Part shown: positions 29,615 to 58,784 of the stretch, one piece after another
How positions within the stretch are numbered: the stretch's first letter is position 1
Layout: each line of letters starts with the position of its first letter
From: Quadrisphaera setariae
GTDB taxonomy: Bacteria; Actinomycetota; Actinomycetes; Actinomycetales; Quadrisphaeraceae
Length of the DNA stretch: 64,000 nucleotides
Assembly (NCBI RefSeq): GCF_008041935.1
Contig: NZ_VKAC01000001.1
Location: 186,001 to 250,000, forward strand
Direction: 5' to 3'
The notes under the pieces: generated by a model
The model's database searches: none
What the model saw: only the letters and a program-made list of their open reading frames with translations
Told to the model about the DNA's origin: nothing
Translations under genes and position numbers: made by a program

Positions 29615-29630
29615 CCGTCAGATTTGACGG
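29615..29630 (+). promoter_or_regulatory. Possible sfnG promoter: TTGACG box inside a small palindrome
   Basis: TTGACG at 29624-29629 is a -35-like hexamer; a weak -10 (CACGCT) starts 18 nt later. The -35 overlaps the perfect palindrome CCGTCA-GATT-TGACGG at 29615-29630, which could be a repressor site. It lies just upstream of the SAM riboswitch. Confidence 0.4.
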
Positions 29631-29661
29631 AACCCGGTCGCGCGAGACACGCTGCGCCCGC

Positions 29662-29768
29662 CCATCCAGAGCGGCTGAGAGACCTGGCTCGTCGACGCCG
29701 CAGCAACCGACCGACCGTGCGCCGTGAGGCAGCTCGGGGAGCGGTGCTCCCGCCAGGACCGATGAGGA
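29662..29768 (+). promoter_or_regulatory. SAM (S-box, SAM-I) riboswitch upstream of sfnG
   Basis: The S-box core is recognisable: CCAGAGCGGCTGAGAGACCT, GGCTCGTCGACGCCGCAGC and AACCG, later GGTGCTCCCGCCAGG and the closing GATGAG. Relative to the usual AGGGAC...GGCCC, the helix reads GAGA...CTC, a compensated G-C to A-U change. The P1 strand GATGAG sits just before the Shine-Dalgarno GAGGAG of sfnG (start at 29785), so control is probably at translation initiation; no terminator with a U tract is visible. High SAM would shut the gene off. Confidence 0.88.
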
Positions 29769-29784
29769 GTCGAGGAGACACCTG

Positions 29785-30984
29785 ATGAGCACCTCTCTGC
29801 CACGCCCCGCCTCCGAGCTCGCGCCCGTGGAGTTCGCCTACTGGGTGCCCAACGTCTCGGGCGGCCTCGTGGTCTCGAACCTGCCGCAGCGCACCTCCCA
29901 CGAGCCGGCCTACAACATCGAGACCGCGAAGGCCGCCGAGAAGGCGGGTTTCACCTACGCCCTCTCCCAGGTGCGCTACGCCGCCTCGTACGGCGCGGAC
30001 GCCCAGCACGAGTCGACGTCCTTCTCCCTCGCGCTGCTGCTGGCCACGGAGAAGCTCAAGGTCATCGCCGCCGTGCACCCCTACTTCTGGCCGCCGGCGG
30101 TGCTGGCCAAGTGGGCCGCCACCGCGCAGGCGCTGACCGGAGACCGCCTCTGCCTCAACGTGGTGTCGGGGTGGTTCAAGAAGGAGGCGCTCGACCTGGG
30201 CGCCCAGTGGCTCGAGCACGACGAGCGCTACGAGCAGTCCGAGGAGTTCATCCAGATCCTCCGCGGCGCCTGGACCACCGACCACTTCGCCTTCCAGGGC
30301 AAGCACTTCCAGGTCGGCGACCTCAACTTCCGCCCCCAGCCCGACGTGCTCCCCGAGATCTTCCAGGGCGGCAACTCCACCGCGGCCCGCCAGATGGCCG
30401 GCCGCGTCTCCGACTGGTACTTCATGAACGGCAACACCCCCGAGGGCGTCGCCGAGCAGGTCGCCCAGGTGGGCGGGTACGCCGCCGAGAACGGCCGCGC
30501 GATCAAGTTCGGTCTGAACGCCTTCGCCGTGGTCCGCGAGACCGAGGCCGAGGCCGTCGAGGTGCTCGACGCGATCATCGCCAACGCCGACGCCGACAAG
30601 GTCAACGACTTCGGGAACGCCGTCAAGGAGGCCGGCCAGGCCGCCAAGGACGGCAAGGGCATGTGGGCCGACAGCGAGTTCAAGGACCTCGTCCAGTACA
30701 ACGACGGGTTCCGCACCGGCCTCATCGGCACCCCTGAGCAGGTCGCGCGCCGCGTGCTGGCGTACCGGCTCATCGGCGTGGACCTCGTGCTGCTGGGCTT
30801 CCTCCACGTCAAGGAGGAGGTCGAGGCGTTCGGCGAGAGCGTCATCCCGCGGGTGCGCGAGCTCGAGGCCGAGCTGGCGGCGCTGCCCGAGGGCACCGAC
30901 CCGGTCGCCCACCTGGGCCTGACCGAGGAGCTCGCCGCCGCGCTGGAGACGCTGTCGCGCCCGGGGGCCGTCGTCCCCGTCTGA
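29785..30984 (+). CDS. sfnG: FMNH2-dependent dimethyl sulfone monooxygenase, SfnG-like
   Basis: Flavin-dependent monooxygenase of the luciferase/LLM class. Dimethyl sulfone to methanesulfinate is the SfnG reaction. The 399-residue protein follows the SfnG pattern closely: FAYWVPNVSGGLVVSNLPQR, YALSQVRYAASYGADAQHES, NVVSGWFKKEALDLG, WLEHDERYEQSEEFI, EIFQGGNSTAARQMAGRVSD, WYFMNGNTPEGV and DLVQYNDGFRTGLIGTPEQV. It needs a partner flavin reductase, which is not in this window. ATG with a good GAGGAG site, behind a SAM riboswitch, so it is expected on only when SAM/methionine sulfur is low. It ends at a perfect 16-bp terminator and stands alone. Confidence 0.88.
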   Translation: MSTSLPRPASELAPVEFAYWVPNVSGGLVVSNLPQRTSHEPAYNIETAKAAEKAGFTYALSQVRYAASYGADAQHESTSFSLALLLATEKLKVIAAVHPYFWPPAVLAKWAATAQALTGDRLCLNVVSGWFKKEALDLGAQWLEHDERYEQSEEFIQILRGAWTTDHFAFQGKHFQVGDLNFRPQPDVLPEIFQGGNSTAARQMAGRVSDWYFMNGNTPEGVAEQVAQVGGYAAENGRAIKFGLNAFAVVRETEAEAVEVLDAIIANADADKVNDFGNAVKEAGQAAKDGKGMWADSEFKDLVQYNDGFRTGLIGTPEQVARRVLAYRLIGVDLVLLGFLHVKEEVEAFGESVIPRVRELEAELAALPEGTDPVAHLGLTEELAAALETLSRPGAVVPV

Positions 30985-31045: not shown

Positions 31046-31081
31046 GGAGCCCGACCGGTGCGCCCGCACCGGTCGGGCTCC
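31046..31081. terminator. Terminator hairpin after sfnG
   Basis: Perfect 16-bp stem: GGAGCCCGACCGGTGC at 31046-31061 and its complement at 31066-31081 with a GCCC loop. It lies 62 nt after the sfnG stop. Confidence 0.85.
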
Positions 31082-43333: not shown

Positions 43334-43357
43334 CGAGAACCCCTACGGGGCCTCGCC
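43334..43357 (-). terminator. Possible attenuator hairpin after the FMN riboswitch
   Basis: On the minus strand, GCGAGGCCCC pairs with GGGGTTCTCGC around a GTA loop (imperfect). It directly follows the aptamer and precedes ribD by about 140 nt. A second hairpin (CCGCCTCCCGAGGCGG) lies near 43283. Either could be the off-state structure; no U tract is visible. Confidence 0.45.
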
Positions 43358-43359
43358 GC

Positions 43360-43482
43360 GTGCTCCTCCCCTCCGGACTCTCACCGTCGGTCCTGGAGTT
43401 CCACCAGGTCCACCGGCCGCTGGCTGCGGTCGGGTCGCGGACTGTCACCGCCGGTTCGGAATTGCACCGACCCCGGAGCGCG
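43360..43482 (-). promoter_or_regulatory. FMN riboswitch (RFN element) upstream of ribD
   Basis: Read on the minus strand: GGGGTCGGTGCAATTCCGAA, CCGGCGGTGACAGTCCGCGA, then GCGGCCGGTGGA, GGTGGAACTCCAGGACCGAC and GGTGAGAGTCCGGAGGGGAG. The paired GGTGACAGTCCG/GGTGAGAGTCCG blocks and the CCGGCGG segment are the RFN hallmarks. It precedes the ribD-ribE-ribBA-ribH operon, so FMN should repress riboflavin synthesis. Confidence 0.93.
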
Positions 43483-43635
43483 CGTCGTTCAGCCGTCGAT
43501 GCTGCCACGACCGCGGCGGTGAGTGCCAGTCCTGGTGCCTGGGAGCACCCCGGGAGGGCACCTCGCCGGGGTCGGGCAGAAGGGGTGGAAGAGGCTCTTC
43601 TCCGCGAAACGCCTGCGGGTCGCCGCCGCTGTACC

Positions 43636-58633: not shown

Positions 58634-58639
58634 TACCCT
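58634..58639 (+). promoter_or_regulatory. -10-like TACCCT for the glyA riboswitch leader
   Basis: TACCCT lies just before the ZTP aptamer, where the leader RNA should begin. No good -35 is seen. Low confidence. Confidence 0.35.
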
Positions 58640-58723
58640 GGCGGCGTCGCGACTGGCGCAGGTGGGCCACCACCGGGGAGCGGCGGGAGAGCAGTCGATC
58701 GGGTCGTCCGCCTGGGCCCGACC
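58640..58723 (+). promoter_or_regulatory. ZTP (pfl) riboswitch upstream of glyA-folD
   Basis: The pfl hallmarks are clear: GCGACTGGCGC, a GGTGG-GCCA-CCACC hairpin, ACCGGGGAGCG, and the downstream pseudoknot strand CCGCCTGGGCCC. ZTP is made from the purine intermediate ZMP when 10-formyl-THF is short; binding turns on one-carbon genes, here glyA and folD, whose product restores 10-formyl-THF. It ends 61 nt before the glyA GTG. Confidence 0.93.
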
Positions 58724-58784
58724 GCCACCTGAGCCGACCGCAGACCGCCACCCCCGATCCCTGCCGCACCGCGAGGAGCACCCC

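Follow-up and report, generated by a model that had tools for sequence, protein, structure and literature searches.

The sfnG locus and its leader

The window, a 64,000-nucleotide stretch of the Quadrisphaera setariae genome, carries on its forward strand, at 29785..30984, an ORF of 399 aa that matches TIGR04021 at 565.9 bits, above the curated equivalog cut-off of 382.95, and whose closest PDB structure (E 1.6e-129) is that of an FMNH2-dependent dimethylsulfone monooxygenase, 8t0u. The gene is thus sfnG, as a first-pass annotation of the same DNA had proposed. A likely promoter precedes it at 29624..29653 (+), with TTGACG at 29624-29629 and, after 18 nt, CACGCT at 29648-29653; the former is kept in all six aligned promoters, and the latter is our own reading of the -10 and is less conserved. 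Given this predicted promoter, transcription likely starts near the first base of the aptamer described below. Downstream, 61 nt past the stop codon, a 16-bp perfect hairpin at 31046..31081 (+) is, read by eye, a likely terminator; no U tract was seen, and a match to mir-Ro6-3 at the same place (27.5 bits) is below the gathering score of 79. With TTGACG upstream and the hairpin downstream, sfnG seems to be transcribed alone, with a promoter, a leader and a terminator to itself. Neither a flavin reductase nor a sulfonate monooxygenase was found among the five neighbouring ORFs that were family-scanned, in agreement with the first-pass annotation. The latter had also seen a possible second layer of control in the palindrome CCGTCA-GATT-TGACGG (29615..29630, no strand assigned), which is indeed present and overlaps the -35; its left arm is retained in none of the five other Quadrisphaera-type sfnG promoters, and its candidacy as an operator was rejected. 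An alternative hairpin noticed by eye in the leader, GGGAGC-GGU-GCUCCC, was likewise set aside, as it is not retained in the leaders L074 and L075.

Between promoter and gene lies a P4-less SAM-I-like aptamer (29659..29768, +). It matched the Rfam SAM family, RF00162, over the whole model (1-108 of 108) with E 5.1e-8, the match that an S-box reading of the leader would lead one to expect, but its 43.5 bits are 0.9 bit below the gathering score of 44.4. A default Rfam scan of the window omits the element because of this score; at gathering level the scan returned an FMN riboswitch (43357-43484, -, 86.5 bits) and a ZMP/ZTP riboswitch (58639-58724, +, 45.8 bits) only. A lineage model, R2, built on 42 aligned relatives from which all sfnG-linked elements had been excluded, gave 84.7 bits (E 2e-20) at 29659-29768, with the runner-up place in the 64 kb at 13.3 bits.

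The P1 helix of the element is short and imperfect, with mismatches marked in the RF00162 alignment. Its 5' strand (29661..29666, +) pairs with 29761-29764 and then, past a bulged A at 29765, with 29766-29767, the GG of AGGAG; the core, CAUC/GAUG, is in the modelled structure, and the bulged extension was read from the sequence and is kept in six aligned Quadrisphaera-type sfnG leaders. The RF00162 match and the covariation structure place P2a at 29671-29675 with 29697-29701 and P2b at 29679-29681 with 29688-29690 (both +). The P2 internal loop (within 29671..29701) consists of 3 + 6 nt, which are the sizes in the SAM-I kink-turn model, size alone being compared, and the compensated change in P2b that the first-pass annotation had picked out (GAG/CTC against GGG/CCC in the model) is there. 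A pseudoknot strand, CCUGG (29683..29687, +), pairs with CCAGG at 29753-29757, and P3 (29702-29708 with 29743-29748, spanning 29702..29748, +) contains the GCAACC/GGUGC pocket strands. From the pseudoknot strand to P1 there are just 3 nt, the ACC linker (29758..29760, +), and therefore no space for P4. By sequence, the Shine-Dalgarno (SD) region spans 29765..29777 (+), with AGGAG at 29765-29769 overlapping P1 and GAGGAG at 29772-29777, and the aptamer ends 16 nt before the sfnG start codon. Across the six aligned sfnG leaders GATGAGGAGTCGA is invariant, and the second SD motif is missing in L075.

Aptamer class and predicted mechanism

The alignment of the 42 relatives (sfnG-linked elements excluded) supports the fold: 99.3% of structure cells pair, and of the 24 pairs 11 vary on both sides, as do 57 cells. 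Sliding the structure by 1-3 columns left at most 51.5% of cells paired and at most 4 pairs with both-side changes, and it is on these slid controls that the weight rests, since the 42 rows are related and the shuffles, of which 0/500 equalled any of five measures, therefore do not amount to a probability. The pseudoknot between the P2b loop and J3/4 is 5 bp long, with 100% of its cells paired and 4/5 of its pairs changed on both sides.

For the binding pocket, SAM-I numbering was carried over to alignment columns by a putative mapping of our own that relies on the SAM-I reference sequence. At the sites that a list within PMC6890682 gives as lying within 5 Å of SAM in SAM-I, the elements are invariant in 42/42 except for two sites at 41/42, and the window agrees. 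A riboswitch of the same fold that had shifted to another ligand, e.g., SAH or a sulfur intermediate, would fit the loss of P4, the altered J3/4 (CUCCCG, CUACCG or CUCAUG against AAUU in the model) and the predominance of sulfur acquisition among the targets, but the pocket nucleotides are unchanged, and MetF-, MetY-, MetQ- and methionine-synthase-like targets suit SAM, so that we consider such a shift quite improbable and infer SAM as the ligand.

The absence of P4 bears directly on the class of the element. At its position there are 2-3 nt in 42/42 relatives and 3 nt in the window, spacings that, as the distance between pseudoknot strand and P1, leave very little credence for a standard SAM-I element in which poor alignment merely conceals P4, even though SAM-I is the best family of the Rfam clan and resembles the element in pocket, pseudoknot and internal loop (3 + 6 nt); P4-bearing thrC-like loci (L212, L213, L215-L221) are visibly different there by eye. 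The SAM-I gathering threshold is failed by four of the six Quadrisphaera sfnG elements, the window's included, and passed by two, at 48.2 and 47.0 bits. Membership in SAM-IV was rejected on two grounds: the sfnG locus is absent from the RF00634 matches in the genome (150 of 2997 first-look candidates scored), and the SD and start codon come less than 20 nt from P1, where P5 and PK-2 would be expected. SAM-I/IV was rejected as well, because RF01725 had no match in the genome at E <= 1 and P2 is interrupted here. With the SAM-I core kept, P4 gone and the locus listed by neither RF01725 nor RF00634, the sfnG leader is, judged by its sequence, a P4-less SAM-I-like variant, near SAM-I yet failing one defining feature. 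What remains of the S-box core described in the first-pass annotation is a SAM-clan riboswitch directly 5' of sfnG, and not a plain S-box, as it is P4-less and sub-threshold.

A sub-threshold Rfam score and an imperfect P1 might also mark an element in decay, without any remaining control over sfnG, as might a Flexivirga locus (L081) that retains a flavin reductase and sfnG without any element. Such decay is hard to credit, since the core is invariant in the six aligned Quadrisphaera-type leaders, whereas P3 and the upstream DNA drift, and covariation is class-wide.

The sfnG leader is probably a SAM-sensing OFF switch of translation that acts by hiding the SD within P1. When SAM is plentiful it would be bound in a pocket to which P1, P3 and the pseudoknot of P2b with J3/4 contribute, and P1 would close; its 3' strand (GAUG-A-GG) would then mask the AGGAG of sfnG and, because of this overlap, ribosomes could not start. 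A drop in SAM would open P1 and permit the synthesis of SfnG, which, with FMNH2 supplied by a flavin reductase encoded elsewhere under a like switch, would convert dimethyl sulfone, its presumed substrate in this organism, toward methanesulfinate, a route that would provide sulfur for methionine and cysteine. In 60/66 elements an SD-like motif has its first base at nt 3-6 of the P1 3' strand, a count made without a shuffled control in a P1 that is purine-rich. Against the proposed mechanism, the second SD motif of sfnG (GAGGAG) lies outside P1, and in nearest-neighbour folding of the free and the aptamer-constrained leader the first SD motif is mostly paired already in the free fold. Untranslated leaders frequently turn into Rho targets, which is the argument for transcriptional control through termination within the leader, whether intrinsic or dependent on Rho, either replacing control of translation or adding to it; but P1 overlaps an SD-like motif, and the 16 nt between aptamer and start codon are too few for a terminator hairpin, so that this alternative appears rather unlikely. 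Occlusion of the translation start has a clear precedent in actinobacterial riboswitches, whose base stems directly overlap it in the cases that passages of Seliverstov et al. (PMC1262725) describe.

Sister elements and distribution

The first-pass annotation had described a riboswitch on a lone sfnG. The element is not an isolated case, as RF00162 finds five elements in the 4.91-Mb Quadrisphaera-type genome, i.e., the sfnG leader and four sisters, which lie on sulfur-acquisition genes or an ABC transporter gene. The first precedes a flavin reductase gene (PF01613, L008 11282-11779), with a GTG start codon 17 nt away from where the P1 3' strand of the element begins; this switch-bearing reductase is likely the partner of SfnG. 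The second heads a co-directional run of ssuB, ssuA, a permease-like ORF (putative ssuC), an acetate-CoA ligase gene (acs) and metY. The third and fourth are each followed by a short ORF, and then by MetY-like and NtaA/DmoA-family (FMN) monooxygenase genes in the one case and an SBP_bac_1 (ABC) transporter gene in the other. No SsuD/MsuD, which would carry methanesulfonate on to sulfite, was found over the cut-off in the genome, the best match having 183.8 against 518.2 bits. The acetate-CoA ligase gene recurs beside metY in runs with SAM elements (L009 4075-6291, -; L228 1111-3420; L036), and its product may recycle the acetate released by MetY. At L036 (G010) the element is followed by a short ORF that resembles the beginning of SsuB; nothing matching SsuB comes after it, and acs is about 580 nt further on; ssuBAC may have been lost there.

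The same genome has at least 10 strong SAM-IV elements (RF00634, 83.6-102.7 bits, with 150 of 2997 first-look candidates scored), which precede MetQ-, MetY-, MetN- and S-methylmethionine-permease-like genes, and also two SfnB/DszC-like genes and one NtaA/DmoA-like gene; one DszC-like protein is about equally close to methanesulfinate monooxygenase (6u76) and to DszC. Because of these latter targets, a clean split with SAM-IV on methionine synthesis and the P4-less class on organosulfur was rejected: as far as predicted targets go, organosulfur genes in this genome are covered by both classes of SAM sensor.

Beyond this genome, a search of 394 genomes with the R1 model found matches in 191 (E <= 1e-4), with most of the low scorers outside the P4-less class. 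At 65.7 bits or more there were 21 genomes among the matches listed, and P4 was lacking in all 20 elements read (one per genome, the window's own excepted). The P4-bearing loci L212, L213 and L215-L221 score 58-64 bits where listed and, by eye, lie upstream of threonine-synthase-like (thrC-like) genes. Genes 3' of the P4-less elements include those for SsuBA-like and MetN-like transporters, MetF, MetQ, rhodaneses, methionine-synthase-like and sulfite/nitrite-reductase-like proteins, and peroxiredoxin, the last at L206 (family scan) and L208 (by eye). GNAT-like acetyltransferase genes were noticed by eye behind the elements L202, L205 and L214, with no match in a family scan of L202 at the E-value applied, and one 11-kb region (G278:C4:121739-132568) holds three same-strand P4-less elements among the matches listed.

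The pairing with sfnG itself has a narrower range. The family set has sfnG in 6/13 genomes, the six of the genus Quadrisphaera, and in all six the element lies just 5' of it. Among 80 named sfnG loci, 18 of the 20 nearest have it 5' of the gene and in the same orientation, against 0 of the next 60 (three of which, L116, L144 and L145, have less than 0.5 kb of upstream DNA), so the arrangement that the first-pass annotation proposed to look for in related genomes does exist. The two exceptions among the nearest are L077, a contig end that starts 3 nt before the sfnG match, is not judgeable and was scored 'no' on the SfnG tree, and the Flexivirga locus L081, where sfnG and, judged by eye, a gene like that of flavin reductase are both retained. 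Loci that retain sfnG without the leader are thus found both inside the clade (L081) and among more distant relatives (60/60), an observation that the first-pass annotation would have counted against its proposal and that in our reading reflects acquisition within one lineage and a single later loss, and not a refutation.

In a tree of 64 SfnG proteins, one clade with full support has 21 members, and the element is present in all of these but L077 and L081, hence in 19; two further carriers (L069 and L071) are placed outside it. Presence on the tree requires 4 changes, of which well-supported branches impose 3, whereas shuffles need 17.7, and two gains and one loss are the simplest reading. 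Two names sit oddly on the tree and are probably misnamed or misbinned: L073 ('Streptomyces sp. NP160'), which clusters with Quadrisphaera, and L089 (an 'Acidobacteria' MAG contig), among the Micrococcales-type SfnG. In the class sample, sfnG (E <= 1e-100) occurs in 53/394 genomes; the best 30 of these loci have the element within 1.5 kb upstream in one case (L069), and a comparison of positions added G014, where it heads acs-sfnG-metY, making a lower bound of at least 2 under strict filters on the R1 matches. When the 30 loci and six more were scanned with Rfam, no further SAM riboswitch turned up next to sfnG. The 18 named loci with an element have it directly 5' of sfnG in 8 and of a flavin reductase-sfnG pair in 10, the reductase having been identified by tblastn in 5 and by visible similarity in 5; in Micrococcales-type loci a single element heads both genes jointly. 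Behind the element, 7 of the 10 pair loci have a short leader ORF.

Leader ORFs and comparison with known systems

The first ORF after the elements is gene-length in 32 of 66, short in 32 and missing in 2, where L082 and L091, which duplicate L180 and L181, are omitted from these and the following counts. Analysis of 29 of the short frames (L167, L206 and L211 were omitted for a distant start or weak SD) found at least one Cys in 27 and a Cys within the last six residues in 25. Cys makes up 7.5% of leader residues against 3.2% in the three frames of the surrounding DNA, with a P of 1.5e-8 that is overstated because the rows are related and were selected as short. Over the RRxVDLMRRAVSAC stretch of the Ornithinimicrobium type, silent and replacing changes numbered 54 and 34 (summed over pairs of 6), a ratio of 0.25 once corrected for opportunity, and NCBIfam NF042934, 'putative leader peptide', matched 10/18 leader peptides at E <= 1 (best 5e-5), all sub-cut-off. 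No such ORF stands behind the element at the window's sfnG. In the many relatives that have them, the Cys leader ORFs suggest control by two signals.

Short ORFs with Cys at or near their end lie right behind the riboswitch SD at L002, L021, L025, L029, L031, L173 and L193-L195, and again at L080, L086, L088, L090, L180 and L181; many of these share an R-x-x-(V/I)D-L stretch, with weak matches to NF042934. The LHIDL leaders of L002 and L029 end in a perfect palindrome, GTCAGCGCTGAC, that spans the stop codon and is followed by a second, CAGCGCTGAC; together these are a possible attenuator hairpin. Four Quadrisphaera-type genomes (L001, L016, L017, L018) have an 8-codon ORF, M-S-x-C-M-x-x-R, after the element of the SBP_bac_1 transporter. 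Behind a SAM-IV element of the window's own genome (L187) comes a leader-like ORF of 29 codons (TRRLVVDLGRTSSTRC) and then a DszC/SfnB-like gene, and leader coupling may for that reason extend beyond the P4-less class.

Taken as a class, the P4-less SAM-I-like elements might represent a separate, pared-down design within the SAM clan, with neither P4 nor PK-2/P5, that serves as a SAM sensor of sulfur acquisition across many Actinomycetes families; about half would gate a Cys leader ORF in place of the structural gene, so that the SAM riboswitch would act in series with an attenuator responding to cysteine, and the window's sfnG would be the leader-free form. We put this forward tentatively, with slightly more doubt than belief. 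If the series reading is true, sulfur-scavenging genes would be on only when SAM and cysteine are both short, and the leader-ORF arrangement of the relatives would offer testable two-input control by riboswitch and attenuator. At sfnG, the use of dimethyl sulfone, a common volatile sulfur compound, would be tied directly to the cellular SAM level, and SAM riboswitch regulons would reach beyond methionine synthesis to organosulfur scavenging. The P4-less aptamer would also be a compact SAM-clan member for structural work, and a genome with five such elements and at least 10 SAM-IV elements is a natural comparison of SAM-sensor classes.

The first-pass annotation knew of no well-described case of this pairing, and a search of open-licence papers yielded none that pairs 'SAM riboswitch' with sfnG or a riboswitch with dimethyl sulfone, and none that joins SAM riboswitch, sulfonate, Actinobacteria and monooxygenase. 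The main text of Sun 2013 (PMC3766115) makes no mention of sulfonate or monooxygenase. Passages on the SAM-I P4 helix in the open literature describe no P4-less SAM-I class, which a specialist paper elsewhere could.

Among known systems, SAM-I (RF00162) is matched in P1, in P2a/P2b with the 3 + 6 nt loop, in P3, in the P2b-J3/4 pseudoknot and in the SAM-contact nucleotides; the sfnG element differs in its lack of P4, its changed J3/4, its pseudoknot of 5 bp, its score (43.5 against 44.4 bits) and its target. In Pseudomonas, sfnG is regulated by the sigma-54 activator SfnR, so that the same enzyme family is switched on when sulfur is short, there by a protein activator at the promoter and here by an RNA switch. 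The likeness to SAM-IV (RF00634), a class common in Actinobacteria, is that no P4 separates the pseudoknot strand from P1; in the SAM-IV structure described in portions of PMC6890682, there is a 4-nt turn, and P5 and a second pseudoknot, PK-2, lie 3' of P1, whereas at sfnG the SD and start codon come at once after P1. SAM-I/IV (RF01725) shares the common core of the clan, but according to passages in PMC2864571 it lacks the P2 internal loop and according to those in PMC6890682 it lacks PK-1 and has P4, whereas the sfnG element has an interrupted P2 and the pseudoknot and is without P4. Finally, the B12 riboswitch of Mycobacterium tuberculosis, which acts with a translated uORF in the account given in parts of PMC11260477, resembles the leader-bearing relatives as an actinobacterial riboswitch working with a short translated ORF; its ligand is another, and the P4-less SAM elements precede Cys leader ORFs of sulfur genes.
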